Assembly (NCBI RefSeq): GCF_005844085.1
Contig: NZ_VCDI01000002.1
Span: 620,001 to 684,000 of the forward strand
DNA from: Lichenicoccus roseus
Lineage (GTDB): Bacteria > Pseudomonadota > Alphaproteobacteria > Acetobacterales > Acetobacteraceae
Direction: 5' to 3'
Length of the DNA stretch: 64,000 bases
Under the pieces are notes generated by a model. The model did no database searches. It saw only the letters and a program-made list of their open reading frames with translations, and was not told the origin of the DNA. The position numbers and the translations under genes were made by a program. Positions 37,388-57,208 of the stretch are shown here, piece by piece (the stretch's first letter is position 1; each line of letters starts with the position of its first letter).

Positions 37388-37514
37388 GGCCATCTCCTTA
37401 GTGGTTGTGGATCGGGAAGGGGGCATCGGGAGCGCGTGCAGGCGGCACTGGCTCTCGCGATATGAACGCCTGTGGCTTAGAGTGTAGCCGCCGAGGTTGC
37501 GAGAAAGGAATGCC

Positions 37515-40079: not shown

Positions 40080-41431
40080 ACGCGATCCCTGGCGCCGAAT
40101 CGCCGCGCTCCCCGGCCTTGCGGCTGCTGCTGATCGACGACAGCGCCGACGTGTTCGTGACCCTGCGCGCCATGCTGTCGCCGTCGCGCCGGCCGGGCCG
40201 CCTGCGCGACTACAAGGTCGAGCATGTCACCCGGGTGGCCGAGGGGCTGGCGGTGATGCGCGAGGGGCGGCACGACTGCTATCTGGTCGACCATCATGTC
40301 GGCGCCGAAAGCGGGCTGGAGCTGGTGCGTTCGGTGCGCGAGGAAGGCATCATGGCGCCGATCGTCATGCTGACCGGCTCGCACATGATCGACACCCGCG
40401 CCGCCGAGGCGGGCGCCAACGACTTCCTGATCAAGGGTGGCTTCGACGTCGCCACCTTCGAGCGCACCGTCCGCTACGCGATCGGCAATGCCGACAGCGT
40501 GCGCCGGCTGGCCGACATGAACGCCACCCTGGAGGCGCAGGTCGAAGAGCGCACCAGGCAATACGTCGAGACCAACCGGCGCCTGCTGGAGCAGATCGCG
40601 GCGCGCGAGCAGGCGGAAAGCGCTTTGTTGCGCAACGAGCGGCTCGGCGCGCTCGGCCGCATGACCGGCAGCGTGGCGCACGATTTCAACAACATCCTGA
40701 CCGCCCTGTTCGGCAGCCTGGAGATGCTGCGGACGCGGCTGCATGCGCAGTGGGGCGACAACCCGGAGCCGCGCCTGTCGCGGCCGTTGGAGAACGCCAT
40801 CGAGGCATCGCGGCTTGGCGAGCGCATGGTCGAGGGACTGCTGGCCTTCGCGCGACAGCAGCCGGTGGCGCCGACGGTGCTGGATGTCGACACGGTGATC
40901 CGCGACACCGAGCAGCTGCTGCGGCTGACGCTCGGCTCCTGCGTCAGCCTCAGGCTGGCGCTGGCGGGCGATCCCGCGCCGATCAGGGTTGATCGCGACC
41001 AGCTCGAACGCGCCCTGCTGAACCTTGGCTCGAATGCGCGCGATGCGATGGAGGGGCGTCCCGGCGCGGAGGTCACCGTCACCACTGCCGCGGCGCGACG
41101 GCCGGCGGGCGGCAGCCGCACGCATTCCGGCTGGGTGCGCATCACGGTCGCCGACAACGGCCCGGGCATGAGCCGGGAGGCGCTCGACCATGCCTTCGAG
41201 CCGTTCTTCTCCACCAAGGCGCCCGGCCATGGCACCGGGCTTGGCCTGGCGCAGGTCTACGGCTTCGCGCAGCAGAGCGGCGGTGTGGCCAGCATCGACA
41301 GCGTCAGCGGCGAGGGCGCCACCGGGGTGAGCGTCGTATTGACCCTCCCGCTGGCCTCTGGACCGGATCCGGCGTCCGATCCCAGTGCAAGCCCGGGGGC
41401 AGGATCGCCGCCCGGCGAGCCGACCGCCTGA
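40076..41431 (+). CDS. Response receiver-histidine kinase hybrid
   Basis: 451 residues, TTG start overlapping the phytochrome stop. N-terminal receiver: [10 protein letters not shown] acidic pair, phospho-acceptor Asp72 (CYLVDHHV), Thr in MLTGSHM, Lys in FLIKGG. Coiled-coil linker (~140-190) with the [20 protein letters not shown] signalling helix, then HisKA with His202 ([11 protein letters not shown]), and HATPase ([29 protein letters not shown]). The order receiver-kinase suggests it takes a phosphate from the bacteriophytochrome and passes it on. No DNA-binding domain, so a further receiver must exist elsewhere. Confidence 0.92.
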
Positions 41432-42384: not shown

Positions 42385-43416
42385 CTATGTCTTGGCGTGC
42401 TGCAGCGGCGGCTCGGTCACGGCAAGATCGTCCTGCAGCGATCGTGTCGGGGTGATCCCGGCTTCCTGTAGCGCGCCATGGTAGGCGCGTACTGCCTCGG
42501 CGGGTGCCACCTCCTGGTCGACCACGCGGCGCATCAGGGCGATCAGCGCCAACGGGTCGTCGGCGAGGTTGATCTTGCGGCCGAACAGCGCCAGGCGTGC
42601 GCCGAAGCGTTCCGCCTGGTGCACCAGCTCGAAGGTATCTCGCGTGGTGCCGCCACCACCGCCCAGCACGCCGACAACGATCGAAGGATCGAAGGTCGCG
42701 AGCTCCTCCAGCGCCGCCGCACCGTTGAACGGCATCTTCAGGAACAGCGGGCGGTCGGCCTTCATCACGCCGGCCAGGCAACGCACGATGTGGTCGTTGA
42801 GCAGGCAGCCGATGGCGTCGCGATCGAGCCCGGTATCGGTGTTCGGGTTGAACACCTCGAGGAAGTGGCGGAAACCGATCTGGCTCGCCTCGGCACGGAA
42901 CGCCTTGTAGGCCTCCAGCGAGGCGAGGTCGGCGGCAAGATCGTTGTTGATCGTCATCGAATACAGGCCGAGGTCGGTGCCTGTGACCGGGGCCTCGGGG
43001 GTCGCGATCGCCGTGCCGTGCATGATGCGCGGCAGCACTGCGGAACTGTGCGGGATCGACTTGTGGGTGACATAGTTGCCGTGGCGCAGGCCACCCCAGA
43101 CGTCGGTGGTCTCGTTCGCGCGTATCGCGGTCTGCACGTCGCTGCTCGCGAAGGTGCCTTCCTCCATCAGCAGCTCGAGGTTCGACGCCGACACCAGCAT
43201 GATGTCGACGATGTCCTGCGCGACGACGGCCTTGATGCTGTCGAGAAATTCGCGCCGGGTACGCCAGCCGTCGTGGCTGCCATCCGACCGGCGGCGCGGG
43301 CCGCCCATGCGTATGCCGGTGCCCATGTCGGCATCCTTGGCATCGGCGATCATGAAGTCGGCACGGGTGTACTGTCCCGCCCGGATACGGCGCAGCTTCT
43401 GGTCCATGCGTGTCAT
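42385..43416 (-). CDS. Class I aldolase-like TIM-barrel protein
   Basis: 343 residues. A barrel-like sequence with a lysine in LFLKMPFNGAAAL placed like a Schiff-base lysine of DeoC/LacD-type aldolases, and a phosphate-loop-like VGVLGGGGGTTRDTFELV near the C-terminus. No exact family recognised. Last gene of the polyol operon on the minus strand, 29 bases after the SDR dehydrogenase gene, so it probably splits the phosphorylated keto sugar made by the dehydrogenase and kinase. The start is the ATG of MTRMDQKL, which follows AGGAAG. Confidence 0.75.
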   Translation of the reverse strand: MTRMDQKLRRIRAGQYTRADFMIADAKDADMGTGIRMGGPRRRSDGSHDGWRTRREFLDSIKAVVAQDIVDIMLVSASNLELLMEEGTFASSDVQTAIRANETTDVWGGLRHGNYVTHKSIPHSSAVLPRIMHGTAIATPEAPVTGTDLGLYSMTINNDLAADLASLEAYKAFRAEASQIGFRHFLEVFNPNTDTGLDRDAIGCLLNDHIVRCLAGVMKADRPLFLKMPFNGAAALEELATFDPSIVVGVLGGGGGTTRDTFELVHQAERFGARLALFGRKINLADDPLALIALMRRVVDQEVAPAEAVRAYHGALQEAGITPTRSLQDDLAVTEPPLQHAKT

Positions 43417-43445: not shown

Positions 43446-44219
43446 TCACCAGACGCAGTAGCCGGCGTCGGCCACGATGACGGAGCCGGTCAGCAGGCTG
43501 GATGCGTCCGAGGCGAGGAACAAAGCCACCGAGGCGATCTCCTCGGCGGTGCCGGCGCGGCGCATCGGGGTCGCCTCGAGCCAGACCGGGCCGAGGCCCT
43601 CGGTGCGCAGGCCGCCGCCGGACATCGTGGTGTCGATGTAGCCGGGAGCGATGGAGTTGACGCGCACGCCGCGCGCGGCCCATTCGCCGGCGAGCGACCT
43701 GCTGAGATGATGCACGCCGGCCTTGGCGGCGTTGTAGTGCGCCTGCCGCTGCGGACGGTTCGAGATCAGGCCCGACATCGAGCCGGTGGTGATGATGCTG
43801 CCGCGTCCGCGCGCCAGCATGTACGCGCCGAACGAGCGGCAGCACCAGAACACGCCGTTCAGGTTCACATCGATCATGCGGCGCCAGACCTCGTCGGTCA
43901 TGTCCTCGCCGCCGGTGTCCGGCCAGGCGATGCCGGCATTGGCGAACAGGATGTCGATGCCGCCGAACCCGGTGTCGGCCTCGTCGGCGGCGCGCTTCAC
44001 GTCGTCCGCGCGGGTGACGTCGAGCACCACGGCGTGCGCGTCGCGGCCGGCCGCGCGCAGGGTGGCAAGCCCCTCGGCAAGCAGCGTCTCGGAATGGTCG
44101 GAAATCACCACGCGCGCGCCGGCCTCGCTGAAGGCATGCGCGGCGGCGAGCCCGATGCCGCGGCCGGCGCCGGTGATGAAGGCGGTGCGGCCGTGCAGAC
44201 GGTATTTATCGAGATACAT
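43446..44219 (-). CDS. SDR polyol/sugar dehydrogenase
   Basis: 257 residues, classical SDR: TGAGRGIG at 16-23, NAG in LFANAGIA, catalytic Ser147/149 region (TTGSMSG), Tyr162 and Lys166 (YNAAK), and a C-terminal GSVIVADAGYCVW. The cluster (polyol-type ABC importer, kinase, aldolase-like) suggests oxidation of a polyol to a keto sugar with NAD+. It resembles D-sorbitol, D-arabinitol or mannitol dehydrogenases of the family but specificity is not readable. It lies 18 bases after the second permease gene. Confidence 0.85.
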   Translation of the reverse strand: MYLDKYRLHGRTAFITGAGRGIGLAAAHAFSEAGARVVISDHSETLLAEGLATLRAAGRDAHAVVLDVTRADDVKRAADEADTGFGGIDILFANAGIAWPDTGGEDMTDEVWRRMIDVNLNGVFWCCRSFGAYMLARGRGSIITTGSMSGLISNRPQRQAHYNAAKAGVHHLSRSLAGEWAARGVRVNSIAPGYIDTTMSGGGLRTEGLGPVWLEATPMRRAGTAEEIASVALFLASDASSLLTGSVIVADAGYCVW

Positions 44220-44237: not shown

Positions 44238-45062
44238 TCATTTGACGGCGCCGAAGGTGAGGCCACGCACCAGCTGCCGCTGCGTCATCCAGCCGAGCGC
44301 CAGGATCGGTGCGATCGCCAGCAGCGAGGCTGCCGACAGCCTGGCCCAGAACAGGCCCTCCGGACTGGAGAACGAGGCGATGAAGGCGGTGAGCGGTGCG
44401 GCGTCCGACGAGGTGAGGTTGATCGACCAGAAGGTCTCGTTCCAGCTCAGGATGATGGTGAGCAGGGCGGTCGCGGCGATACCGGGGGCGGCGAGCGGCA
44501 GCAGCAGCCAGAGCATCTGCTGCAGGAAACCGGCGCCATCCATGCGCGCCGCCTCCAGGATCTCGTGCGGAACGTCGCGGAAGAACGAGTACAGCATCCA
44601 CACCGCGATCGGCAGGTTCGCGAGCGTGTAGATCCCGACCAGGCCGATGCGGGTGTCCAGCAGCCCGGCATCGCGGAAGATCAGGTACACCGGGACCAGC
44701 ACGCCGACCGAGGGCATCATCTTGGTCGACAGCATCCAGAGCAGCAGGTCCTTGGTGCGGTGCGTCGGGTAGTAGGCCATCGCGTACGCCGCCGGGATGC
44801 CGAGCAGCAACGCGGCCGCGGTCGAGCCGAAGCTCACGATCACGCTGTTGGTGGCGAAGTGCAGGTAGTCGCCGCCATCGATCATGTTCGCGAGGTTCTC
44901 GAAGGTCGGCCGGAAGAACAGCAGCGGCGTCGAGGAGATCGCCTGCGCCTCGGTCTTCACCGAGGTGATCGCCATCCAGAAGATCGGAAAGAAGGTGATG
45001 CCGCCGACGATCCAGCCGAGGACCGACAGCGAGAGGCGGGTGGCGGCGGGGGCGCGTCTCAT
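44238..45062 (-). CDS. Carbohydrate ABC transporter permease 2 (MalG/SmoG-like)
   Basis: 274 residues with six membrane helices; start MRRAPAATRLSLSVLGWIV. EAA loop with EILEAARMDGAGFLQQMLWLLLP near residue 185, and C-terminal LSAASLLAIAPILALGWMTQRQLVRGLTFGAVK, the common end of CUT1 MalG-type permeases. ATG overlaps the partner permease stop by ATGA. Together with the other permease and the binding protein it makes a polyol-type importer lacking an ATPase in this operon. Confidence 0.92.
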   Translation of the reverse strand: MRRAPAATRLSLSVLGWIVGGITFFPIFWMAITSVKTEAQAISSTPLLFFRPTFENLANMIDGGDYLHFATNSVIVSFGSTAAALLLGIPAAYAMAYYPTHRTKDLLLWMLSTKMMPSVGVLVPVYLIFRDAGLLDTRIGLVGIYTLANLPIAVWMLYSFFRDVPHEILEAARMDGAGFLQQMLWLLLPLAAPGIAATALLTIILSWNETFWSINLTSSDAAPLTAFIASFSSPEGLFWARLSAASLLAIAPILALGWMTQRQLVRGLTFGAVK

Positions 45063-45994
45063 TTCAGGCCCCGGGGGCCCATGCTGGTCGCGACGCTTCG
45101 CACCAGGAAGAAGGCGACGATGTTGGCGAGCACCACGGCCACGATGCCGCCGGCCGAGGCGCCGCCGACGTCGTATCGCAGCAGCGCGGTCTTGTAGACC
45201 AGGTATGGCAGGTTGGTGGTGGCGCTGCCGGGACCGCCGCTGGTGGTGACCAGGATCTCGGCGAACACCGACAGCAGGAAGATGGTCTCGATCATCACCA
45301 CGATGCTGATCGGACGCGCGAGGTGCGGCAGCGTGATGTAGCGGAAGCGGGCGACCGGGCCGGCGCCGTCCATGTGCGCCGCTTCCATCTGGTCCTGGTC
45401 GAGCGACTGCAGGGCGGTGAGCAGGATCAGGGTGGCGAACGGGATCCACTGCCAGGCCACGATGATGCCGATGGCGAGCAGCGGCACGTTCGAGAACCAG
45501 TCGACCGGGGTGAGATGGACCAGGTGCGCGAGCCAGGCGAACAGGCCGGTCACCGGGTTCAGCAGCAGGTTCTTCCAGATCAGCGCGCTGACCGTCGGCA
45601 TGACGAAGAACGGCGCGATGCAGAGCAGGCGCAATATGCCGCGGCCGAACAGCGGCTGGTCGAGCAGCACGGCGGTCAGCGTGCCGAGCGCGATGCTGGC
45701 CGCCAGCACGCCGCCGACCAGCAGGACGGTGTTCCAGATCGACCGCCACAGGTCGTGGCCGCCCAGCAGGTAGCTGTAGTTGTCGAAGCCGGCGAAGCCG
45801 CCCGCCGGACGCAGCAGGTTGTAGCGCTGGAACGAGAACCACAGGGTGAGCGCCAGCGGCACGACCATCCAGACCAGCAGCACCGACACCGCCGGCGTGA
45901 GCAGCAGCCGCGCCTGCCGCGCCGTGCGTGCCTGCGCCTGCCGGCGCGTGCCCCGGCCGGCGCCCGGAGCGTGCGCCATCGTCACGGCGTTCAT
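45059..45994 (-). CDS. Carbohydrate ABC transporter permease 1 (MalF/SmoF-like)
   Basis: 311 residues, six membrane helices after a basic 30-residue tail. EAA loop QDQMEAAHMDGAGPVARFRYITLPHLARP, FAEILVTTSGGPGSATTNLPYLVYK segment typical of CUT1 sorbitol/mannitol permeases. It starts seven bases after the binding protein stop. ATGA coupling to the second permease. Substrate is presumably the polyol recognised by the upstream binding protein. Confidence 0.93.
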   Translation of the reverse strand: MNAVTMAHAPGAGRGTRRQAQARTARQARLLLTPAVSVLLVWMVVPLALTLWFSFQRYNLLRPAGGFAGFDNYSYLLGGHDLWRSIWNTVLLVGGVLAASIALGTLTAVLLDQPLFGRGILRLLCIAPFFVMPTVSALIWKNLLLNPVTGLFAWLAHLVHLTPVDWFSNVPLLAIGIIVAWQWIPFATLILLTALQSLDQDQMEAAHMDGAGPVARFRYITLPHLARPISIVVMIETIFLLSVFAEILVTTSGGPGSATTNLPYLVYKTALLRYDVGGASAGGIVAVVLANIVAFFLVRSVATSMGPRGLK

Positions 45995-46001
45995 CGGGGT
46001 G

Positions 46002-47315
46002 TCACCGCAGGTAGCCGCCCTGTGTCATCGCCCGGGTGGTGTCGTCCTGCGCCTGCTTGAGCGCGTCGTCGACGCTCATCTGCCCGGAGACGGCGGCTGC
46101 GACCTGCTGTCCGATATCGGTGCCGATATCCTGCCATTCCGGGATGCCGACATAGCTGATGCCGGTGTAGGGCACCGGCTGCGTGACCGGATGGTTGGGG
46201 TCGGCGGACTGCATCGCGGCGAGCACGGCCGGTGCGTACGGCGCGGCCTTCAGGTAGTCCGGGTTGCGGTACGTGGAGCTGCGCGTTCCGGGTGGCACCG
46301 CACCCCAGCCATTGGTCCTGGCAACCAGCTCGATATACGCGGGCGACGTTGCCCACAACGCAAACCGCTTGGCGGCCTCCGCCTTGCGCGAGGTCTTGGG
46401 CACTGCCAGCGTCCAGGCCCACAGGTAGTGCGAGCCGACCTTGCTGGTCGCATACGGGGCCGCGGCATAGCCGACCTTGCCGGCGACCTTGCTGGTTGCG
46501 GGATTATTGAGGAAGCTCGCCGACACCGTGGCATCGACCCACATGCCGCACTTGCCGCTCGCGAACAGCGCCAGCGTCTCGTTGTAGCCGTTCGACACCA
46601 CGCCGGGCGGTCCGGAATCCTTCAGCAGCTTGACGTAGAAACCGACCGCCTGCTTCCACGGCGCCGAAGTCAGGAGCGGGTGCCAGTCCATGTCGAAATA
46701 GCGGCCGCCGAAGCTGTTGGCGATGTCGGCGATGGTGCCCATGTTCTCGCCCCAGCCCGGCTTGCCGCGCAGGCAGATGCCGTAGACGCCGTGCGCAGGG
46801 TCGCTGATCTTGCCGGCAAGGTCCGCGATCTGGCTCCAGGTCGGGTTCTCCGGCATGGTCAGGTGCTTCGCCTGCAGCAGGTCGGTGCGGTAGATCGTGA
46901 ACGAGCTCTCGCCATAGAACGGCACCGCATCGAGCTTGCCGTCGACGGTCAGCGCGTTGCGGATCGACGGCAGCAGGTCATCGACCTTGTAGCTCGCCGG
47001 AATGGCGGTGAACGGCGACAGCCAGCCGAGCTTGCCCCAGATCGGAACCTCGTAGATGCCGACGGTGATGAGGTCGAGCTGACCGGAGTGGGTCGCGATA
47101 TCCGTGGTGACGCGCTGGCGCAGCACGTTCTCCTCGAGCGTCACCCAGTGCAGCCTGATGTCCGGGTTCTGCGCCTCGAACTGCGACGACAGCTTCTCCA
47201 TCACGATCATGTCGGAATTGTTCACCGTCGCGATGGTGATCGTCGTTGCGGCGTGACCCGCGGTGCCGGTGACGGCGAGGCCGAGCAGGCCGGCGAATAT
47301 CGATTTTGCTTTCAT
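46002..47315 (-). CDS. Carbohydrate ABC transporter, periplasmic binding protein (SmoE-like)
   Basis: 437 residues; signal peptide MKAKSIFAGLLGLAVTGTAG, cut near GHA. Mature part starts TTITIATVNNSDMIVM and has the FEAQNPDIRLHWVTLEENVLRQR region of sorbitol/mannitol-binding proteins. The C-terminal DIGTDIGQQVAAAVSGQMSVDDALKQAQ is the family's final helix. The start was chosen at the signal peptide ATG; no strong ribosome site is visible. Follows the kinase gene after a 50-base gap with a dyad symmetry element. The ligand is likely a hexitol or pentitol; not decidable by eye. Confidence 0.92.
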   Translation of the reverse strand: MKAKSIFAGLLGLAVTGTAGHAATTITIATVNNSDMIVMEKLSSQFEAQNPDIRLHWVTLEENVLRQRVTTDIATHSGQLDLITVGIYEVPIWGKLGWLSPFTAIPASYKVDDLLPSIRNALTVDGKLDAVPFYGESSFTIYRTDLLQAKHLTMPENPTWSQIADLAGKISDPAHGVYGICLRGKPGWGENMGTIADIANSFGGRYFDMDWHPLLTSAPWKQAVGFYVKLLKDSGPPGVVSNGYNETLALFASGKCGMWVDATVSASFLNNPATSKVAGKVGYAAAPYATSKVGSHYLWAWTLAVPKTSRKAEAAKRFALWATSPAYIELVARTNGWGAVPPGTRSSTYRNPDYLKAAPYAPAVLAAMQSADPNHPVTQPVPYTGISYVGIPEWQDIGTDIGQQVAAAVSGQMSVDDALKQAQDDTTRAMTQGGYLR

Positions 47316-47358
47316 CTGGACGGTCCCGTTGGTTTGCGTGTTGTTTTTCGTTCTGGCT

Positions 47359-47374
47359 GCTGTCTTCAGACAGC
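47359..47374 (-). promoter_or_regulatory. 16-bp dyad at the kinase stop codon
   Basis: GCTGTCTTCAGACAGC, with 7-base perfect arms and a two-base centre, covering the kinase stop codon and ~45 bases ahead of the binding protein start. Too tight a centre for a stable hairpin, so if real it is more likely a protein-binding site than a terminator. Confidence 0.25.
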
Positions 47375-48568
47375 TTGCCCGAGCACCAGCAGGCACCCGG
47401 CCATGAAGGTGTCGCCGAGGCCCAGCGTGGTGGCCGGGCTTGGCAGGAACGGCGCCGACACCGCGATGAAATGCCAGGGTGCCGGCAGCGCCCGCGCTGC
47501 GGGAGGCGCCTCGAAGATCGCTTCCGCATGCGCGCCCTGCGGCGTCGCGACGGTTCCGGTTGCTGCCCGGTTGCCGGCCAGCAGGCAGCCGGTCAGCAGG
47601 GCGCGACGCTCGCGCTCCGGATCGCCGGTGGTGACCGCGGCGGCCCAGTTGTCGGCATGCACGCAGACGCGCTGCAGACGCAGGCGCAGCGCCAGCGCCG
47701 CCATGCCTTCGGCGAGCGGCGCCGGTGCGGGCATCAGGGCTTCGTATTCGGACAGGCTCAGTCCGAGCGAGGTGATCTGTCCGGCAAGGCCATCCAGCAC
47801 CGCGTCGCGATAGGCGTCGCGGTCGTAGCCGGCCAGCTCGAGATGGATCAGCAGCGGCTCGGGGCGTTGCCAGCCGGCGATCAGGTTTCGCGTCAGCGTC
47901 AATGCCGCCTGCATGTCGCCGCCGCCCACGCCGTTGTAGCCGGACAGCACGGCGGCACCCGCCTCGCCGGCGAGCCGTCCGCTGGTGCCTGCGAACTCGG
48001 CGTCATCCTCCAGGCCGGGATCGTTGAAGCGCACGATGATGCGCGACGAGCGGCCGAGCACCTGCCCGCCGAGCGGCCGGCCGGCGGTGAATTCGAAGAT
48101 GTAGATCTTGGGGACATCCGGACTGGTCGGGACAAGCCTGGCGACCTCGACCGGGGTGCCGTCGACCGCGAGGCGGATGCGCGGATCGAGCACCGCCAGC
48201 TGTTCCGGACTTCGTGTCGCCAGGGCCAGCAGGGCGGGAGCACCCAGGTGCGTCAGCACGCGCGCGGCATGCGGGCCGGTGCCGCCCAGGGCGTGGCGGA
48301 AACGCAGACGCTGGTCGAGCCAGTCCGGACCTCCGGGCCAGTCGACGCGCATCTCGCCGCCACGCCCGGCGACGGCGCGGTCGCGCAGCAGGTCGCCGAA
48401 CAGGTGTGCCTGCGGATTGCCGCCGCCATGCAGCACCGGCATCGCGTCGTGCAGCGAGATGGTCGCATCGACACAGGCGGACAGGCCGCAGAAGGTCAGC
48501 CGGGCGCGGGCCGCCAGGGCGTCGAGATCGAGTGCTGCCTGCCGATACTCATGGCGCCAGTCGAGCAT
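47366..48568 (-). CDS. ADP-dependent sugar kinase homologue (ADPGK/PfkC-like)
   Basis: 400 residues of the ribokinase-fold ADP-dependent glucokinase/phosphofructokinase family. Shared landmarks: IFEFTAGRPLGG (158-168), the HLELAG motif at 242-247 followed by ITSLGLSLSEYEAL, which matches the pattern of animal and archaeal ADP-dependent kinases, and the catalytic GLGD at 383-386. ATG has GGGGAGG upstream. First gene of the minus-strand polyol operon, so it likely phosphorylates the imported or oxidised sugar. ADP-using members are uncommon in proteobacteria; nucleotide use here is not shown. Confidence 0.8.
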   Translation of the reverse strand: MLDWRHEYRQAALDLDALAARARLTFCGLSACVDATISLHDAMPVLHGGGNPQAHLFGDLLRDRAVAGRGGEMRVDWPGGPDWLDQRLRFRHALGGTGPHAARVLTHLGAPALLALATRSPEQLAVLDPRIRLAVDGTPVEVARLVPTSPDVPKIYIFEFTAGRPLGGQVLGRSSRIIVRFNDPGLEDDAEFAGTSGRLAGEAGAAVLSGYNGVGGGDMQAALTLTRNLIAGWQRPEPLLIHLELAGYDRDAYRDAVLDGLAGQITSLGLSLSEYEALMPAPAPLAEGMAALALRLRLQRVCVHADNWAAAVTTGDPERERRALLTGCLLAGNRAATGTVATPQGAHAEAIFEAPPAARALPAPWHFIAVSAPFLPSPATTLGLGDTFMAGCLLVLGQAV

Positions 48569-48708: not shown

Positions 48709-49542
48709 GTGCGGGAGACAGATCGGGTGGACGACGTGCTGCTCATCGAGGCGGCCCAGGATGAGAGCGGCGCGAACCTGCCGGCGGCCCGACAATCCAA
48801 GCTTGTCGAGCTGGTCACCAGAAGGGGCCAGGTCTCGGCCGGGGAGTTGGTCAGCCTGTTCGGGGTTTCGCGCGACACCATCCGGCGCGACCTGACGCTG
48901 CTTGAGGAGCGTGGCCTGCTGGTGCGCACGCACGGTGGCGCGGTGCCGCGCGAGCGGCTGGTGACCTCGTCGATCACCACCCTCGACAGCCGCATGAACA
49001 AGCATCAGGCCGCAAAGCAGCGCATCGCGCGAGCGGCGACCCGCCTGCTGCGCCCGCGCGAGACGCTGATGCTCAATGGTGGCTCGACCATCGCCTGCTT
49101 CGCCGCCGCCCTCGGCGACCTGCGCGACCTCACCATCGTGACCAACAGCGTGCATGTCCCGACCCTGCTGCCGGAGACCGCGGTGCGTGCGGTCTACGTG
49201 CTCGGCGGCACCTACATCGCCTCCTCGCAGGTGATGGTGGGGTTCGCCGGCTTCGCCGCGATGCCGCAGATCTCGGTGGATACCGCGGTGATCGGCGTAT
49301 CCGGCCTGTCCGCCCGGGGCTGCTCGATCAGCAAGCTGGAGGAGGCGACCGCCACCAAGGAGATGATGGCCGCCTGCGAGCGCACCATCCTGCTGGCGGA
49401 CAGCAGCAAGTTCGACCTCCAGGCGTTCGCGCTGGTGGCGGATTTCGAGCGTGTCGAATATCTGGTGACCGATGCGGGGCCGGAGGGCGAGCTGGCGGCC
49501 GCGCTCGAGGAGGCCGGCGTCAAGATCGTAGTGGCCCAGTGA
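48709..49542 (+). CDS. DeoR-family transcriptional repressor
   Basis: 277 residues (GTG start; another GTG at 48727 is possible). N-terminal winged helix: RQSKLVELVTRRGQVSAGELVSLFGVSRDTIRRDLTLLEERGLLVRTHGGAV, the DeoR signature. C-terminal sugar-phosphate sensing DeoRC domain with GGSTIACFAAAL and TNSVHVPTLL, later LLADSSKFD. Divergent from the polyol operon and overlapping the following aldolase gene. It probably represses both sides and is released by a phosphorylated sugar intermediate. Confidence 0.92.
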   Translation: MRETDRVDDVLLIEAAQDESGANLPAARQSKLVELVTRRGQVSAGELVSLFGVSRDTIRRDLTLLEERGLLVRTHGGAVPRERLVTSSITTLDSRMNKHQAAKQRIARAATRLLRPRETLMLNGGSTIACFAAALGDLRDLTIVTNSVHVPTLLPETAVRAVYVLGGTYIASSQVMVGFAGFAAMPQISVDTAVIGVSGLSARGCSISKLEEATATKEMMAACERTILLADSSKFDLQAFALVADFERVEYLVTDAGPEGELAAALEEAGVKIVVAQ

Positions 49543-50480
49543 TGGAGCAGCGCGTCATGCAGCATCCGATCGCGCCGGACGGCGACCGTATCGCCGGCCA
49601 CTGGACGGCGGCGGCGACTCCCCTGCAGGCGAGCGGCGCGGTCGACCAGCATCGCCTCGCGGCCCACGCAGCCGGGTTGCTGGAGGTGGGATGCGATGGC
49701 GTGCTGCTGTTCGGCACCACCGGGGAGGGCACCTCGTTTTCAGCTGCCGAACGGCTGTCCGCCGTCGAGGCGTTGCTGCACGCCGGGATTCCGGCATCGT
49801 CGATAGCCCTCGGCATCGGCATGCCGGCGCTGCCGGACGCGGTCGGGCTGGCCCGTTCGGCCCTGCGGCTCGGCCTCGCCCACATGCTGGCGCTGCCACC
49901 CTACTTCTACCGGGACGTGACCGATGCGGGCCTCACCGAGGCGTTCGCGCTGTTGATCGACGGGATCGACGATGCGCGCCTGCGCCTTGCGCTCTACAAC
50001 ATCCCGCAGGTCAGCGGCGTCGCGTTGCCCCCGGCGACGGCGGCCGCGCTGCGGGCGCGCTACGGCGTGCTGGTTGCCGGCGTGAAGGACAGCAGTGGCC
50101 GGTTCGACAGCGTGCTGGCCTACCGGGAGGCTGCTCCGGCGCTGGCGATCCTGGTCGGGCACGAGCCGGACATCGCGCGCGCCTTGCGGGCCGGCGCCGC
50201 CGGCACGATCTGCGGCCTGTCCAACATCGCGCCCGGTGCGGTGCGCGCGATGTTCGCATCGGGCGGCAATGCAGCGCACCATGCGGAAGCCGACATGACC
50301 GCGATCGCCGGCCTGATACGCGGACCGTTCGTACCGGCGCTGAAGGCGATCATGGCGGCGCAGCGTGGCGATGCGGCATGGCGTCGGGTGCGGGCGCCGC
50401 TTGTCGCCGCTTCGGAGGCGTACGGCGCCGAAGCATTGCAAAGCCTGCGCCGCCTGGCGCCGGACCAGAGGATCACATGA
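49542..50480 (+). CDS. DapA-family (dihydrodipicolinate synthase-like) aldolase
   Basis: 312 residues. GTTGEG at 58-63, Tyr152 (YNIP) and Schiff-base Lys182 (GVKDSSG) in the places expected of class I DHDPS/N-acetylneuraminate lyase enzymes. ATG 49542 overlaps the DeoR stop (a GTG one codon earlier is also possible); the end overlaps the FAD oxidase start. In this catabolic cluster it is more likely a 2-keto-3-deoxy sugar-acid aldolase or dehydratase than the lysine enzyme. The true substrate is unknown. Confidence 0.85.
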   Translation: MEQRVMQHPIAPDGDRIAGHWTAAATPLQASGAVDQHRLAAHAAGLLEVGCDGVLLFGTTGEGTSFSAAERLSAVEALLHAGIPASSIALGIGMPALPDAVGLARSALRLGLAHMLALPPYFYRDVTDAGLTEAFALLIDGIDDARLRLALYNIPQVSGVALPPATAAALRARYGVLVAGVKDSSGRFDSVLAYREAAPALAILVGHEPDIARALRAGAAGTICGLSNIAPGAVRAMFASGGNAAHHAEADMTAIAGLIRGPFVPALKAIMAAQRGDAAWRRVRAPLVAASEAYGAEALQSLRRLAPDQRIT

Positions 50481-51892
50481 TGCCGGACCATTTCGACCAC
50501 ACCGTTGCCGGAGCCGGGCGAGACGTACTTGCGGCCCTGCAGGCGGCGCTCGGCGACGCGGTGCTCGCGGGCGAGGCGATCCCGACCCGCAACCTGCGTG
50601 ACTGGAGCTCGATGGATGCGGTCCGGCCACTGGCGGTGGTGCGGCCGGACAGCACCGAGGGCGTGGCGACCGCCATGCGGGTGTGCGCGCGGCATGGCGT
50701 GGCGGTGGTGCCGCAGGGCGGCCTGACCGGACTGTGCGGCGGGGCGCTGCCGATCGCGGGCGCCGTCGCGCTTTCGCTGGAACGGCTGACCGGCATCGAG
50801 GAGATCGATCCGGCGGCGTCGACCATCACCGTGCGCGCCGGCACCCCGCTGGAGGCGGTGCAGCAGGCGGCGTCCGACGCCGGCTTCCTGATGCCGCTCG
50901 ACCTCGGTGCGCGTGGCTCGTGCGCGATCGGCGGCAACATCTCGACCAATGCCGGCGGCAACCGGGTGCTGCGCTACGGCATGGCCCGCGAGATGGTGCT
51001 CGGCCTGGAGGTGGTGCTGCCGGACGGCACCATCATGACCAGCCTCAACAAGATGCTGAAGAACAATGCCGGCTACGACCTGCGCCAGCTGTTCATCGGC
51101 AGCGAGGGCACGCTGGGCATCGTAACCCGCGCGGTGCTGCGGCTGTTTCCGCAACCCGCCAGCGTCTCGGCTGCGCTTTGCGGTGTGGCGAGCTACGCTG
51201 GGGTGCTGGCCCTGCTGGATGCCGCGCGGCGCGAACTCGGCGCCCAGCTTTCCGCCTTCGAGGTGATGTGGCCGGACTACTGGCGCGTGGTCACCGGCAT
51301 GAACGGCGTGCGCAATCCGCTTGCCGGCGAGCATGCGTTCACTGTTCTGGTGGAGACCCATGGCAGCGATGCCGCGATCGATCCCGGCCGGTTCCAGGAC
51401 TGGCTGGAGCGCCAGGCCGAGGCCGGTACGGTGGTGGACGCGGCGGTGGCGCAGTCGATCGCCGACGTGCAGGCGTTCTGGCGCACGCGCGACGCCGCCG
51501 GCGAGTTCGTGCAGGTCCTCGGCGTGCACGAGAGCTTCGATATCGGGCTGCCGGTCGGCGCCATCGACGACTTCACCGCCGCCTGCCGCGACGCTCTGCA
51601 GGCGCGGCTGCCCGGTGTGATCGCCTTGTTCTACGGCCATGTCGCCGACGGCAACCTGCACATCGTGAGCAACCTGCCGGGTGCCGCGACGCAGCCGAAG
51701 CAGGCGATCCAGGAGACGGTCTACGGGACGGTGCAGCAGTTCGGCGGCACGGTTTCGGCCGAGCACGGCATCGGTCTGAGCAAGAAGCGCTGGCTGCCGT
51801 ATACCCGCAACCCCGTCGAACTCGACCTGATGCGCACCATCAAGCGAGCGCTGGATCCGGCCGGCCTGTTGAATCCCGGCAAGGTTTTCTGA
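50477..51892 (+). CDS. GlcD-type FAD-linked dehydrogenase (2-hydroxy acid oxidase)
   Basis: 471 residues. VAO-type FAD domain: PDSTEGVATAMRVCARHGVAVVPQGGLTGLCGG and GGNISTNAGGNRVLRYG. The C-terminal FAD-oxidase half has YGHVADGNLHIVSN and SAEHGIG, as in D-lactate, glycolate and D-2-hydroxyglutarate dehydrogenases. ATGA overlap with the aldolase gene, so the two are coupled: an aldolase product such as glycolaldehyde-derived glycolate or lactate could be its substrate, as inference. No GlcE/GlcF partner genes follow. Confidence 0.9.
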   Translation: MMPDHFDHTVAGAGRDVLAALQAALGDAVLAGEAIPTRNLRDWSSMDAVRPLAVVRPDSTEGVATAMRVCARHGVAVVPQGGLTGLCGGALPIAGAVALSLERLTGIEEIDPAASTITVRAGTPLEAVQQAASDAGFLMPLDLGARGSCAIGGNISTNAGGNRVLRYGMAREMVLGLEVVLPDGTIMTSLNKMLKNNAGYDLRQLFIGSEGTLGIVTRAVLRLFPQPASVSAALCGVASYAGVLALLDAARRELGAQLSAFEVMWPDYWRVVTGMNGVRNPLAGEHAFTVLVETHGSDAAIDPGRFQDWLERQAEAGTVVDAAVAQSIADVQAFWRTRDAAGEFVQVLGVHESFDIGLPVGAIDDFTAACRDALQARLPGVIALFYGHVADGNLHIVSNLPGAATQPKQAIQETVYGTVQQFGGTVSAEHGIGLSKKRWLPYTRNPVELDLMRTIKRALDPAGLLNPGKVF

Positions 51893-51952
51893 GGAGGCCA
51901 CGAAGACTCGAAGACGCACTGGGCAAGTCCGCGCAAGCCATACTAAGCTGAA

Positions 51953-51966
51953 AGGGAGCGCTACCA
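51953..51966 (+). promoter_or_regulatory. LacI-type operator upstream of the sugar importer
   Basis: A GGGAGCGCTACC core, an imperfect palindrome around AGCGCT of the form GGnAGCGCTnCC, matching the usual LacI/GalR-family operator. It is 56 bases before the binding-protein start. No LacI-type gene is in the window, so a trans-acting regulator is implied. Confidence 0.5.
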
Positions 51967-52021
51967 AGAGCGCCAGGTTCGACCTGAACTTATGAAGAAC
52001 AAACGTGCTCCCGGAGGAAAC

Positions 52022-52975
52022 ATGCATAGACTGATCCAGGCCACCCTAGTCGGAGCGGTCAGCCTCGCCTTATTTGGCGCGCCGGCGGTTGCCCAGCAGA
52101 AGAAGTCGCTGGCCCTGGTCACCAACGTTTCCGCCGACTTCTGGACCGTCGCCCGCGCCGGCGTCATGAAAGCCCAGGGCGAGCATCCCGATTTCGCCAT
52201 GCAGGTGATCGTCACCGGCCAGGCCACCGCCGCCGAGCAGCGTCGCGAGCTCGACGACCTGCTTGCCTCCGGCGTCGCCGGCATCTCGATCTCGGCCATC
52301 GACCCGAAGAACTCGACGGAGGAGTTCAACAAGGTCGCGAGCCACGCGGCCCTGTTCACCACCGACAGCGACGCGCCGAATTCAAATCGCCTGGTCTATA
52401 TCGGTACCGACAACAAGGCGGCCGGGTTGCAGGCCGCCGGCGAGATCCGCAAGGCGCTGCCGAACGGCGGCAAGCTGATGGCCTTCGTCGGCACCATGGA
52501 CGCCGACAACGCCCGCGAGCGTGTCGAGGGCATCCGGGAGGGGCTGAAGGGCAGCAACGTCACGATCGTCGACATCCGCACCGATGGCGGCGACTTCGCC
52601 AAGGCCAAGGCGAACGTGCAGGATGCGCTGGCCAAGGGCGGTCTTGACCTGCTCGTCGGCCTCTACAACTACAACACGCCGCAGATCTATTCCGCCGTAA
52701 AGGACGCCGGCATGTCCGGCAAGATCAAGGTGGTGGGTTTCGACGAGGATGCCCAGACGCTGCGCGGCGTGGCCGACGGCACCATCCAGTCGACCATCGT
52801 GCAGCAGCCGTTCCAGTTCGGCTACCAGTCGATGACCGACCTGGTGAAATACATCAACGGCGACAAGTCGTTCATTCCGGCCAACCACCTGATCATCATT
52901 CCGACGCGCGTCATCCAGAAGGACAACGTGCACGAGTTCCAGCAGAGCATGCGTCGCATGCTGGCCGCCAAATAG
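52022..52975 (+). CDS. Ribose-type ABC transporter, periplasmic sugar-binding protein
   Basis: 317 residues; very strong ribosome site (GGAGGAAAC directly before the ATG). Signal peptide MHRLIQATLVGAVSLALFG, cut near AVAQ. The rest is a periplasmic-binding fold of the RbsB type: KSLALVTNVSADFWTVARAGVMKA, AISAIDPKN, YIGTDNKAAGLQAAGEI, GFDEDAQTLRGVADGTIQSTIVQQP. It binds a sugar (pentose or hexose, unknown) for the CUT2 importer encoded by the next two genes. Confidence 0.93.
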   Translation: MHRLIQATLVGAVSLALFGAPAVAQQKKSLALVTNVSADFWTVARAGVMKAQGEHPDFAMQVIVTGQATAAEQRRELDDLLASGVAGISISAIDPKNSTEEFNKVASHAALFTTDSDAPNSNRLVYIGTDNKAAGLQAAGEIRKALPNGGKLMAFVGTMDADNARERVEGIREGLKGSNVTIVDIRTDGGDFAKAKANVQDALAKGGLDLLVGLYNYNTPQIYSAVKDAGMSGKIKVVGFDEDAQTLRGVADGTIQSTIVQQPFQFGYQSMTDLVKYINGDKSFIPANHLIIIPTRVIQKDNVHEFQQSMRRMLAAK

Positions 52976-52997
52976 ACCAGGCGGGGATCCCCGGCCG

Positions 52998-54524
52998 GTG
53001 GCCGCCGACACGCTGCTGTCCCTGGCCGGGATCAGCAAGTCCTACGCCGGCGTGCGAGCGCTGGTCGATGTCAGCCTCGGCGTCGAGGCCGGCACCGTGC
53101 TCGGCCTGATCGGCGAGAACGGCGCCGGCAAGTCGACGCTGATGAAGATCCTCGGCGGCGTGGTGCAGCCGGATGCCGGCAGCATCGTGATCGACGGTGT
53201 CCCGCACGGTGCCATGACGGTGGCGAGCGCCGCGCGCGCCGGGATCGCGTTCGTGCACCAGGAACTCACCGTGCTCGACAACCTCGATGTCGCGGCCAAC
53301 ATCTTCCTCGGTCGCGAGGCGGTGGCGGGCGGGCCGCTGCGTCTGGTCCGCAACCGCGCCATGCATGACCTCGCGCGCCCGCTGCTGCAGCGGCTGGGCG
53401 CCGATTTCGGCCCCGAGACCAGTGTCTCGAAGCTGCTCATCGCCCAGCGCCAGCTCGTCGAGATCGCCCGTGCGCTTTCGGTGGACGCGCGCGTCATCAT
53501 CATGGACGAGCCCACCTCCAGCCTCACCCTGCAGGAGACCGAACGCCTGCTGCAGGTGATCGCCGACCTGCGCGCGTCGGGCGTCGCGGTGATCTACATC
53601 AGCCACCGGCTGCACGAGGTGAAGGCCTGCGCCGACCGCGTCGTCTGCCTGCGCGACGGCCGCGTCGCGGGGGGCCTGAAACGCGACGAGATCGAGCACA
53701 ACGCCATGATCCGGCTGATGATCGGCCGCGACCTGCGTTCGCTCTACACGCCGCCGCTTGCATCGCCCGGCGGCGAGATCTGCGTCGTCGACCGGGTTGT
53801 GACCAGTGCCTTTCCCGACCGCCACCTCTCGTTCACGCTGCGACGCGGCGAGATCCTGGGGATGGCGGGCCTCGTCGGGTCCGGCCGCACCTCCCTGGCC
53901 CGCGCCCTGTTCGGGGTGGATCCGATCCTGTCGGGCGAGGTGCGGCTGGCCGGGCAGGCCGTCACCATGCGCTCGCCGAGGCAGGCGATCGAGCAGGGCA
54001 TCTACCTGGTGCCGGAGGACCGCAAGGGCGAGGGCCTCGTCCTCGACATGAAGCTGTCGGAGAACATCTCGCTTGCCAGCATGCAGCGGCATGCGCGTCT
54101 CAACCTGATCGATCGCGCCTCGGAGACCGCCACCGCGCGCGAGCAGCAGGCGTCGCTCAGGATCAAGACCCCGGGCGTCGCGGTCCATGCCGCCACCCTG
54201 TCCGGCGGCAACCAGCAGAAGGTGGTGCTCGCCAAGTGGCTGTCGATGGCGCCGCGCCTGATCATCTTCGACGAGCCGACGCGCGGCATCGATGTCGGCG
54301 CCAAGGGCGAGATCTACACGCTGATGCGCGCGCTTGCCGATGACGGGGTCGGGGTCATCATGATCTCGAGCGACATGGAGGAGGTCATCGGGGTCTCGGA
54401 CCGTGTCGCGGTGATGCACGAGGGGCGGATCAGCGGCGTGCTGGACCGGCCCGATTTCTCCGAACTCAACGTGCTGCGCCTGGCCATCGGCCAACCCGCC
54501 GAGCATCTGGAGACCGTCTCATGA
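52998..54524 (+). CDS. Ribose-type ABC transporter ATPase (RbsA/XylG-like)
   Basis: 508 residues, tandem ABC domains typical of CUT2 importers. First: GENGAGKSTLMKILGG, Walker B VIIMDEPTSSLTLQE; second half has MAGLVGSGRTSLARALFG (degenerate Walker A GxxxSGRT), LSGGNQQKVVLAKWL and IFDEPTRGIDVGAKGEIY. GTG start 22 bases after the binding-protein stop. It pairs with the single-type permease that follows. Complete. It could in principle also serve the ATPase-less polyol operon, though CUT2 and CUT1 ATPases do not normally mix. Confidence 0.94.
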   Translation: MAADTLLSLAGISKSYAGVRALVDVSLGVEAGTVLGLIGENGAGKSTLMKILGGVVQPDAGSIVIDGVPHGAMTVASAARAGIAFVHQELTVLDNLDVAANIFLGREAVAGGPLRLVRNRAMHDLARPLLQRLGADFGPETSVSKLLIAQRQLVEIARALSVDARVIIMDEPTSSLTLQETERLLQVIADLRASGVAVIYISHRLHEVKACADRVVCLRDGRVAGGLKRDEIEHNAMIRLMIGRDLRSLYTPPLASPGGEICVVDRVVTSAFPDRHLSFTLRRGEILGMAGLVGSGRTSLARALFGVDPILSGEVRLAGQAVTMRSPRQAIEQGIYLVPEDRKGEGLVLDMKLSENISLASMQRHARLNLIDRASETATAREQQASLRIKTPGVAVHAATLSGGNQQKVVLAKWLSMAPRLIIFDEPTRGIDVGAKGEIYTLMRALADDGVGVIMISSDMEEVIGVSDRVAVMHEGRISGVLDRPDFSELNVLRLAIGQPAEHLETVS

Positions 54525-54544
54525 GCAGCAAGGACCGGGGCTGA
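54521..54544 (+). other. Seven-codon reading frame bridging two ABC genes
   Basis: ATG at 54521 overlaps the ATPase stop (ATGA). The frame reads MSSKDRG and its TGA (54542-54544) overlaps the permease ATG at 54544. The micro-peptide resembles the permease start (MARKDWG), as if the first codons of the permease had been duplicated out of frame. It may simply keep ribosomes moving from one gene to the next. Confidence 0.3.
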
Positions 54545-55560
54545 TGGCGCGTAAGGACTGGGGGCTGCTGCTGCTGCTGCTCGTCGTCGGCGGCGTCACC
54601 GCCATACTCAATCCGCGTTTCCTGTCGGCGGTCAACCTGCTCGACATGGCCAACCTGATCGGCCTGTTCGGGATCTTCTCGATCGGCGTCGGCATGGTGA
54701 TCATCACCGGCGGCATCGACCTGTCGGTGGGTTCGATCTTCGCGTTGCTCGGGGTGGTGTTCATCGACCTGCTGGTCAATCGCGGCGTGCCGTGGCCGCT
54801 GGCGATCCTGGCCGTCGTCGCCGGCGGCGTCGTGCTCGGCGGGCTGCAGGGCCTGCTGGTGACCAAGGCGAAGCTGCAGCCGTTCGTCGTCACCTTGTGC
54901 GGCCTGCTGATCTACCGGGGTGCGGCGCGCTACTACACCACCGACGCGACCATGGGCTTCGGCTATTCCGACGATTTCGACTGGCTCGGATGGCTCGCCT
55001 CGGGCCGCAGCTGGGGCATCCCGCACCCGTTCATCCTGCTCATCATCGTCGCCGTCGTCATGGGCGTGCTGCTGCACCGCTCGGTGTTCGGGCGCTACCT
55101 GTTCGCCATCGGGCGCAACGAGGAGGCTGCGCGCTTCTCCGGCATACGCACCGACGCGGTGGTCATCGGCGCCTACGTCATCAGCGGGGGGCTGGCGGGT
55201 GTCGCCACGATCTGCCTGGTCTTCTACACCAATTCCGTGTCGCCCTCCTCGTTCGGCAACTTCTACGAGCTGTATGCCATCGCCGCCGCCGTACTGGGCG
55301 GCTGCAGCCTGCGTGGCGGCGAGGGCTCGGTCATCGGCATCGTGCTCGGCACCGCCCTGCTGCAGGTCCTGCAGAACCTGGTGAACATCCTCGGCATCCC
55401 GAGCTCGCTGAACTTCGCCGTGATGGGCACCGTCATCCTGCTCGGCGTGCTGGCCGACCAGCCCATCGTGCGACGCGCGATCCCATCGTTCCGCACCCTG
55501 CGGCCGGGCCGCGGCACCGCGAAGCCGGTTCCGGGGTCGGTGGCGCCAGACCGATCCTGA
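54544..55560 (+). CDS. Ribose-type ABC transporter permease
   Basis: 338 residues with about 9-10 membrane helices, a single CUT2 permease (RbsC/AraH-like). Signature region GMVIITGGIDLSVGSIFALLG with the conserved GGIDLSVG, and GGCSLRGGEGSVIGIVLGTALLQVL near the C-terminus. Works as a homodimer with the ATPase upstream. Its ATG is preceded by the micro-frame described at 54521. Final gene of the importer operon; zwf follows after 94 bases. Confidence 0.93.
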   Translation: MARKDWGLLLLLLVVGGVTAILNPRFLSAVNLLDMANLIGLFGIFSIGVGMVIITGGIDLSVGSIFALLGVVFIDLLVNRGVPWPLAILAVVAGGVVLGGLQGLLVTKAKLQPFVVTLCGLLIYRGAARYYTTDATMGFGYSDDFDWLGWLASGRSWGIPHPFILLIIVAVVMGVLLHRSVFGRYLFAIGRNEEAARFSGIRTDAVVIGAYVISGGLAGVATICLVFYTNSVSPSSFGNFYELYAIAAAVLGGCSLRGGEGSVIGIVLGTALLQVLQNLVNILGIPSSLNFAVMGTVILLGVLADQPIVRRAIPSFRTLRPGRGTAKPVPGSVAPDRS

Positions 55561-55654
55561 GGGTCCAGCCAGGAAACCGTCCGCCGTCACCGCGTTCACC
55601 ACTCGGTGAGCCGGTTTGCCAGACCCGGCCAGGTACGGAACAGGAGCAGCACGC

Positions 55655-57208
55655 ATGGAAAAGATCGCCGAGGTCTCGTCACCCGCGCAGGCGGACCACA
55701 AGATCCCGCCTGCCGCCGCCAAGCCGGCGCCGCCCTGCACCCTGATCATCTTCGGGGCCCATGGCGACCTGACCAAGCGGCTGCTGATGCCGGCGCTCTA
55801 CAACCTGACCTCCGCGCACCTGCTGGACGACCAATTCACCGTCATCGGCGTGGACCGCGTCGACAGCAACGACGACGAGTGGCGCAAGTCGCTGGCCGAT
55901 ACCATGCAGGAGTTCACCAAGGATCCGGATGCCGAATTCTACACGCCCGAGATCAACCAGGACTGGTGGGGCTGGCTGAACCAGAGGCTGCACTACCACA
56001 AGGCCGACTTCACCGACGTAAGCCAGCTGCAGGGTCTCGCCGAGCACGTCAACAAGACCGGCAATGCGGTGTTCTATCTCGCGGTGGCGTCGCGCTTCTT
56101 TGCGACCGTCGTCGAGAATATCGGCAAGGCCGGCCTGACCAAGCAGGAGAACGACCATTTCCGCCGGGTGGTGATCGAGAAGCCGTTCGGCTCCGATCTC
56201 GACAGCAGCAAGGCGCTGAACGCCTCGATCCTCAAGGTGCTGGACGAGAGCCAGATCTACCGGATCGACCATTTCCTCGGCAAGGAGACGGTGCAGAACA
56301 TTCTTGCCATGCGCTTCGGCAACAGCGTGTTCGAACCGCTCTGGCGCCGTGAGCATATCGACCACGTGCAGATCACCGCTGCCGAGACGGTCGGCGTGGA
56401 GGGTCGCGGGGCGTTCTACGAACCGACCGGTGCGCTGCGCGACATGATCCCGAACCACCTGTTCCAGCTGTTCGCGATGATCGCGATGGAGCCGCCGAAC
56501 TCGTTCAGCGCCGAGACGGTGCGAACCGCAAAGGAGCAGCTGTTCGAGGCGGTGCGTCCGGTCACGCCCGAGGATTCGGTGCGTGGCCAGTACGGCGGCG
56601 GCACGGTGCAGGGCAAGCAGGTCACCGCCTACCGCGAGAGCGCCGGTGTCGCGCACGACAGCAACACCGAGACCTATGTCGCGCTGAAGCTGCATGTCGA
56701 CAACTGGCGCTGGGCGGACGTGCCGTTCTACATGCGCACCGGCAAGTGCCTGACCGGTCGTCGCACCGAGATCGTGGTGCATTTCAGGCATGCGCCGTTC
56801 GGCATGTTCCACGATACCCCGATGGACAAGCTGCCGCAGAACACGCTCACCCTGAACATCCAGCCGGCGCAGGGCGTGACCTGGAACATCGCCGCCAAGA
56901 TCCCGGGGCCGAAGATGGAGCTGTCCGGCGTCGAGATGAAGTTCCGCTACGAGGACGCCTTCAAGCTGACGCCGAATGTCGGCTACGAGACGCTTCTGTA
57001 TGATTGCCTGACTGGCGACGCGACCCTGTTCCAGCGCGCCGACAACATCGACGCCGCCTGGAAGGTGGTGGATCCGGCGCTGAAGGCCTGGGCCGCCGAC
57101 AAGAGCGGCCCGGAGATCTATCAGGCGGGCAGCGCCGGACCGAAGGGCGCCGAGGCGCTGCTTGGCCGGGATGGCCGGCAGTGGGCGCCACTGAACCAGC
57201 CGGAGTAG
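55655..57208 (+). CDS. zwf: Glucose-6-phosphate 1-dehydrogenase
   Basis: 517 residues, start at the ATG behind AGGAGCAGCACGC. An N-terminal ~25-residue extension precedes the NADP+ fold (LIIFGAHGDLTKRLL). Substrate/catalytic region VIEKPFG and RIDHFLGKETVQN with the catalytic His, as in the G6PD family. First step of the oxidative pentose phosphate and Entner-Doudoroff routes, making NADPH. It follows the sugar importer closely on the same strand, so it may be read with it, although a promoter in the 94-base gap is possible. Confidence 0.96.
   Translation: MEKIAEVSSPAQADHKIPPAAAKPAPPCTLIIFGAHGDLTKRLLMPALYNLTSAHLLDDQFTVIGVDRVDSNDDEWRKSLADTMQEFTKDPDAEFYTPEINQDWWGWLNQRLHYHKADFTDVSQLQGLAEHVNKTGNAVFYLAVASRFFATVVENIGKAGLTKQENDHFRRVVIEKPFGSDLDSSKALNASILKVLDESQIYRIDHFLGKETVQNILAMRFGNSVFEPLWRREHIDHVQITAAETVGVEGRGAFYEPTGALRDMIPNHLFQLFAMIAMEPPNSFSAETVRTAKEQLFEAVRPVTPEDSVRGQYGGGTVQGKQVTAYRESAGVAHDSNTETYVALKLHVDNWRWADVPFYMRTGKCLTGRRTEIVVHFRHAPFGMFHDTPMDKLPQNTLTLNIQPAQGVTWNIAAKIPGPKMELSGVEMKFRYEDAFKLTPNVGYETLLYDCLTGDATLFQRADNIDAAWKVVDPALKAWAADKSGPEIYQAGSAGPKGAEALLGRDGRQWAPLNQPE

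Follow-up and report, generated by a model that had tools for sequence, protein, structure and literature searches.

A divergent ADP-dependent-type sugar kinase in a putative polyol operon of Lichenicoccus roseus and its linkage to aldolase genes

Which sugar, and at the expense of which nucleotide, would a kinase of the ADP-dependent family phosphorylate in a catabolic operon of an alphaproteobacterium? Such ADP-dependent enzymes are familiar from archaeal glycolysis and from the animal ADPGK, and what purpose they serve there is debated. The question is raised by a locus of Lichenicoccus roseus, a soil-type alphaproteobacterium, that lies within a stretch of 64,000 nucleotides (contig NZ_VCDI01000002.1, positions 620,001 to 684,000), termed here the window. 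A sequence-only reading of this DNA assigned an open reading frame to the ADP-dependent kinases, placed it in a polyol operon, regarded its presence in such a host as unexpected and proposed that it would save ATP. The plus-strand frame of the interval 47366-48568 is a shadow ORF; the real gene is located on the minus strand, is intact and encodes 400 amino acids followed by a stop codon. The kinase gene and its neighbours are as follows:

42385..43410, minus strand: ALD, predicted class I aldolase, 341 aa (TIM-barrel model; no Pfam family)
43446..44219, minus strand: SDR dehydrogenase, predicted to perform the polyol to ketose step (PDB matches)
44238..45062, minus strand: ABC permease, MalG type (NCBIfam matches; 68% identical in locus L008)
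45059..45994, minus strand: ABC permease, MalF/UgpA type (NCBIfam matches)
46002..47396, minus strand: ABC periplasmic binding protein, polyol type (PDB 4rya; Pfam SBP_bac_1)
47366-48568, minus strand: divergent sugar kinase of the ADP_PFK_GK family
48709..49542, plus strand: DeoR-family regulator, divergent from the kinase (Pfam DeoRC, E 3.9e-39)

It was confirmed by profile searches and by the modelled ribokinase-like fold that the kinase is a divergent member of the ADP_PFK_GK family. Pfam PF04587 (ADP_PFK_GK) matches it far above chance (E 1.6e-14, 53.9 bits against a cut-off of 27) and is the sole family found up to E 10, a range from which PfkB is absent; the same profile matches 9/9 members of the close subfamily (best E 2.2e-23). 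The NCBIfam equivalogs for ADP-glucokinase and ADP-phosphofructokinase match the kinase weakly and far under their cut-offs, which is why it has to be termed divergent. A profile (A1) of nine sequences, composed of subfamily members only, with canonical ADP-kinase sequences left out, retrieved 14 ADP-dependent kinase sequences from the PDB (best E 8.1e-20) and nothing besides them below E 0.1; membership was judged by A1, since profile A2, which includes canonical members, is biased. The AlphaFold2 model, built with 51 sequences in the alignment, has a mean pLDDT of 95.6, and in a Foldseek search with this model ranks 1-22 were all occupied by chains of ADP-dependent kinases (E 3e-24 to 5e-17, TM by query 0.67-0.83), while the first ATP-type ribokinase appeared only after rank 22 (E 3e-8, TM 0.41). 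Misassignment of a PfkB kinase is thus ruled out by Pfam, by the subfamily profile and by Foldseek, and the Leu in the GXGD motif likewise differs from ATP-dependent ribokinases. The family proposed by the sequence-only reading was therefore right, and a better match to PfkB was not found. In structural alignments the kinase is 16-18% identical to characterised ADP-dependent members.

Does so divergent a protein retain the catalytic apparatus of its family? Residue roles were taken from PMC7948494 and mapped via the profile-PDB alignment, and conservation was counted over 51 aligned rows. The motifs quoted earlier from sequence, HLELAG, SLGLSLSEYEAL, IFEFTAGRPLGG and GLGD, are present, HLELAG at residues 242-247 and GLGD at 383-386. 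HXE corresponds to H242-L-E244 (Glu in 51/51 rows, His in 49/51). The catalytic Asp of GXGD is D386, the Glu of NXXE is E274, and the equivalents of the β-phosphate Arg206 and of the ribose His360 are R176 and H304, each of the four being conserved in 51/51 rows; the equivalent of the sugar Asp36 is D34. The segment SLGLSLSEYEAL is an NXXE variant with Asn replaced by Ser. This replacement is found in the window kinase and in 33/51 rows (Asn in 18/51), both states occur inside one subfamily, and Asp at the same position is known in an active family member (PMC7948494). An inactive or regulatory paralogue, for which the Asn to Ser change might speak, is hardly credible, as the catalytic Asp, the Glu of HXE and of NXXE and the Arg and His equivalents are invariant, so that no catalytic residue has been lost, and as the aldolase linkage described below is conserved across phyla.

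The second residue of GXGD bears on the phosphoryl donor: ATP-dependent enzymes of the ribokinase family have a small residue there (Ala, Cys, Val, Ser or Thr), ADP-dependent members have Ile or Leu, and those that depend on PPi have Arg (PMC5931981). The window kinase carries L384 here, which is the ADP-type state by this rule, itself derived from a limited enzyme set. Because a genome scan of GTDB used the GLGD pattern, conservation of GLGD among its loci is partly by construction; Leu is also found in A1 members obtained by tblastn or profile, plasmid ones included, where this bias does not apply. Judged from these residues, ADP is probably the donor. It is unlikely, albeit not far-fetched, that the enzyme has the same pathway role and uses ATP, alone or along with ADP, its ADP-type ancestry being no longer decisive: such a shift would fit the strong divergence from characterised members, the lost Asn of NXXE and the ATP-type GAGD PfkB kinases that hold the same place in sister operons, and is opposed by the published ADP-type Leu, by the invariant equivalents of the ADP β-phosphate Arg and ribose His and by the lack of any PfkB sequence match. 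Would the use of ADP save ATP, as was proposed? It yields AMP, whose recharging by adenylate kinase consumes ATP; the balance of phosphoryl bonds thus stays the same, nothing is saved, and the proposal does not follow.

Downstream of the kinase, on the same strand and separated by short gaps or overlaps, lie the genes of the binding protein, two permeases, SDR and ALD. The listed GTG start of the binding protein overlaps the kinase gene, and the true start is probably the later MKAKSIF. Among PDB entries the binding protein is closest to 4rya, which is titled 'ABC transporter substrate binding protein (Sorbitol)' (E 1.2e-158), and the best PDB matches of SDR are the putative polyol dehydrogenase 3awd (E 2e-76) and galactitol dehydrogenase 2wdz (E 9.5e-59), in agreement with the polyol operon that the sequence-only reading described. 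Allitol was considered as a substrate and rejected: the allitol-bound protein 4WT7 differs from 4rya, the entry matched here, and it is not among the matches listed for the Rbs-type binding protein of the ALD locus L015. Homologous operons exist in rhizobia; the MalF/UgpA-type permease is 68% identical to that of Sinorhizobium americanum, and SDR is 60-61% identical to its counterparts in rhizobial kinase operons. An ABC ATPase gene is absent from the window operon (transporter genes 44238-47396); a UgpC-type ATPase is present in many homologous operons, and the window transporter presumably borrows a shared one. The divergent order of DeoR and kinase genes is found also in the relatives L028 and L054, and the DeoR protein may control the operon. 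A search for a sigma-70-like promoter found none. On the plus strand, 48709-57208 encodes, beginning with this regulator, a DHDPS-family protein, a GlcD-like FAD oxidase, an Rbs-type binding protein, an ATPase, a permease and glucose-6-phosphate dehydrogenase, a divergent gene run that is possibly a linked second sugar pathway.

ALD is without a Pfam family: none of 23 members of its group (0/23) has a match above chance. Its model, of medium confidence (pLDDT 81.4, lowest near residues 28-32 and 102-109), matches TIM barrels of the class I aldolase type, i.e., LsrF, archaeal FBP aldolase, ADH synthase and tagatose-1,6-bisphosphate aldolase. By sequence the similarity to LsrF is weak (E 0.014), and homology to LacD was rejected, the profile comparison (hhalign) being not significant. 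The lysine of the FLK motif (K225) is invariant and aligns with the 'LK' lysine in the LacD-type partner described below; since that alignment is non-significant, K225 may be regarded as a candidate Schiff-base lysine. The protein is predicted to be a class I aldolase from its model and gene linkage, yet it is called here 'aldolase-like', as it matches class I enzymes (DeoC/LacD) by fold and not by sequence profile. The family, of ~340 aa, is conserved and widespread on rhizobial plasmids as 'hypothetical protein', with a sugar kinase nearby in the loci examined.

How widespread is the kinase and what accompanies it? It is single-copy in the host genome, and among 147 genomes searched a homologue was found in one other, G058, of the same taxonomic family, whose kinase (locus L003) cannot be told apart on the tree from the one in L064 (Acetobacteraceae). 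The GTDB pattern scan gave 61 related loci, mostly in Alphaproteobacteria, and plasmid homologues named 'ADP-dependent glucokinase/phosphofructokinase' in RefSeq are 40-48% identical to the window kinase, so the occurrence of such a kinase in a bacterium is precedented. No members beyond the query genomes were found in sampled Actinomycetota or in a sample of the class to which the Lachnospiraceae match belongs. In 69 kinase loci, a number that includes the near-duplicates L008/L035, L009/L042, L010/L061 and L003/L064, ALD is present in 51, LacD in 13, both in 0 and neither in 5; three of these five (L079 and L080 of Actinomycetota, L082 of Lachnospiraceae) have a class II FBP-type aldolase near the kinase. 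The aldolase gene lies <700 bases from the kinase in 50/64 cases. On a quick tree of the kinases, with 36 ALD and 12 LacD rows, the aldolase partner was switched at least four times, and the subfamily is split from more canonical members with support of 100, long branches weakening the deepest part. ALD loci without this kinase contain instead a PfkB kinase, or an FGGY kinase with a GlpD-like oxidase. The conserved linkage, the swaps of partner and the association of ALD with other kinases together indicate that the product of the kinase is the substrate of the aldolase. It is very improbable that the protein serves central glycolysis as an ordinary ADP-glucokinase/phosphofructokinase, the role that the RefSeq product name and the weak NCBIfam ADP-glucokinase match would give it: the match reaches 30 bits where the equivalog cut-off is 387, the gene shares its operon with transporter, dehydrogenase and aldolase genes and is missing in nearly all relatives, and on the tree it stands apart from the more canonical members.

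The acceptor was approached through the sugar-binding residues. The ligands of the F6P phosphate in AncMsPFK, N32/N34/K179/N181/R212, correspond to S30/C32/K154/I155/N182 in the window kinase, so that only the Lys is kept, a residue that most subfamily members lack; His, found at this site in glucokinase, takes the place of N181 in 23/51 rows. The equivalent of the glucose-binding Glu90 is E72, found in 51/51 rows, and Glu90 is conserved only in ADP-GKs and bifunctional enzymes (PMC7948494). Replacement of N32, N34, N181 and R212, combined with the invariant Glu90, favours an unphosphorylated sugar as acceptor, and the kinase is unlikely to be a glucokinase or an F6P kinase. Since 1,6-bisphosphates too are substrates of LacD and of class II aldolases, phosphorylation of a free ketose at C1 is not the sole reading of the linkage. 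A second-step kinase that, like LacC or ADP-PFK, converts ketose-6-phosphate to a 1,6-bisphosphate for the aldolase would accord with the best known pathways of the LacD and class II partners and with the ADP-PFKs of the same family, which phosphorylate F6P; with the phosphate ligands replaced, Glu90 invariant and no other kinase in the window operon, it appears rather improbable.

The preferred reading, to which we give a probability of about one half, is that of an active ADP-family kinase that phosphorylates a free ketose, most likely at C1 and probably with Mg-ADP, before the product is split by ALD. According to this model, a polyol would be imported via the ABC transporter and oxidised by SDR to a ketose, the kinase would produce ketose-1-phosphate, and ALD would cleave it to DHAP and an aldehyde. 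Whether the bacterial subfamily as a whole consists of ketose 1-kinases with interchangeable aldolases (LacD, class II and a class I-like family hitherto undescribed), serving an ADP-driven polyol route in non-archaeal hosts, most of them Alphaproteobacteria, is a more tentative proposal, to which we lean slightly less than to its opposite.

The window kinase shares family profile and fold with archaeal ADP-GK/PFK (PF04587; 1ua4, 6c8z, 6xio, 5od2, 4b8s), as well as HXE, the NXXE Glu, the β-phosphate Arg, the ribose His, the glucokinase-type Glu and a GXGD with large hydrophobic X; it differs in its low identity, in the lost F6P-phosphate ligands, in SXXE for NXXE and in being encoded in a catabolic operon with an aldolase, whereas the archaeal enzymes act in glycolysis. 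The RefSeq-named plasmid homologues (Rhizobium, Sinorhizobium, Agrobacterium, Aureimonas) belong to the same subfamily and operon type; their name is automatic, derived from the family domain, and is probably wrong about the acceptor. Searches of mainly open-access literature found no study of the bacterial subfamily. Since the homologues were already named, the novelty lies in the acceptor that is predicted, in the pairing with aldolases and in the aldolase-like family, which had no name. If the reading is true, automatic annotation in rhizobial genomes would be corrected, the unannotated ALD family would gain a function, and a bacterial branch acting in peripheral catabolism on a different acceptor would widen the chemistry of the family.

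Similar pairs of a ribokinase-fold kinase and a class I aldolase are known from sulfo-EMP (sulfofructose kinase/YihT) and LacC-LacD, but their kinases are of the PfkB family and their substrates differ. The structures nearest to the LacD-type partner of the subfamily are 8tnf, YihT and LacD; a sulfosugar pathway, suggested by 8tnf, is unsupported, as the candidate in the corresponding paper is of the PfkB family and the organism degrades sulfofucose by a route of Entner-Doudoroff type (PMC12421959). The Sinorhizobium smo locus (SmoEFGK, SmoS, MtlK) likewise combines a polyol ABC transporter with ketose-making dehydrogenases, yet there the ketose passes to fructokinase (F6P) or XylB and no aldolase is involved (PMC10433430).

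The PfkB kinases beside ALD (L015, L016, L103) stand where the window kinase does, adjacent to a member of the same aldolase family, and differ in belonging to another family, in their ATP-type GAGD motif and in their linkage to Rbs-type transporters. One of them is in the host genome, where a second ALD (L103:8850-9842, minus strand; G000:C12), 53% identical to that of the window, has as neighbours an Rbs-type transporter and a PfkB kinase with GAGD; the GLGD/GAGD swap beside ALD within one genome offers a paired system for the choice of phosphoryl donor. Loci L018, L019, L020, L021 and L109, with ALD, FGGY kinase and GlpD-like oxidase, look like a route via polyol phosphate, with the kinase step before the oxidation. 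In Pseudactinotalea suaedae (L079:6721-11987) neighbouring ADP_PFK_GK kinases, a family with three matches in that genome, adjoin two class II FBP-type aldolases and an SDR. In the window, 37497-41431 on the plus strand was read by eye as two genes, the first for a phytochrome-like sensor kinase and the second for a response regulator/histidine kinase. Finally, the ADP-kinase genes of loci L004, L005, L006 and L007, from small genomes of the same class (1.5-2.3 Mb), are full-length and closer to the canonical type (Pfam E 1e-69 to 1e-78); their residues are of the glucokinase type, yet with GMGD as GXGD.
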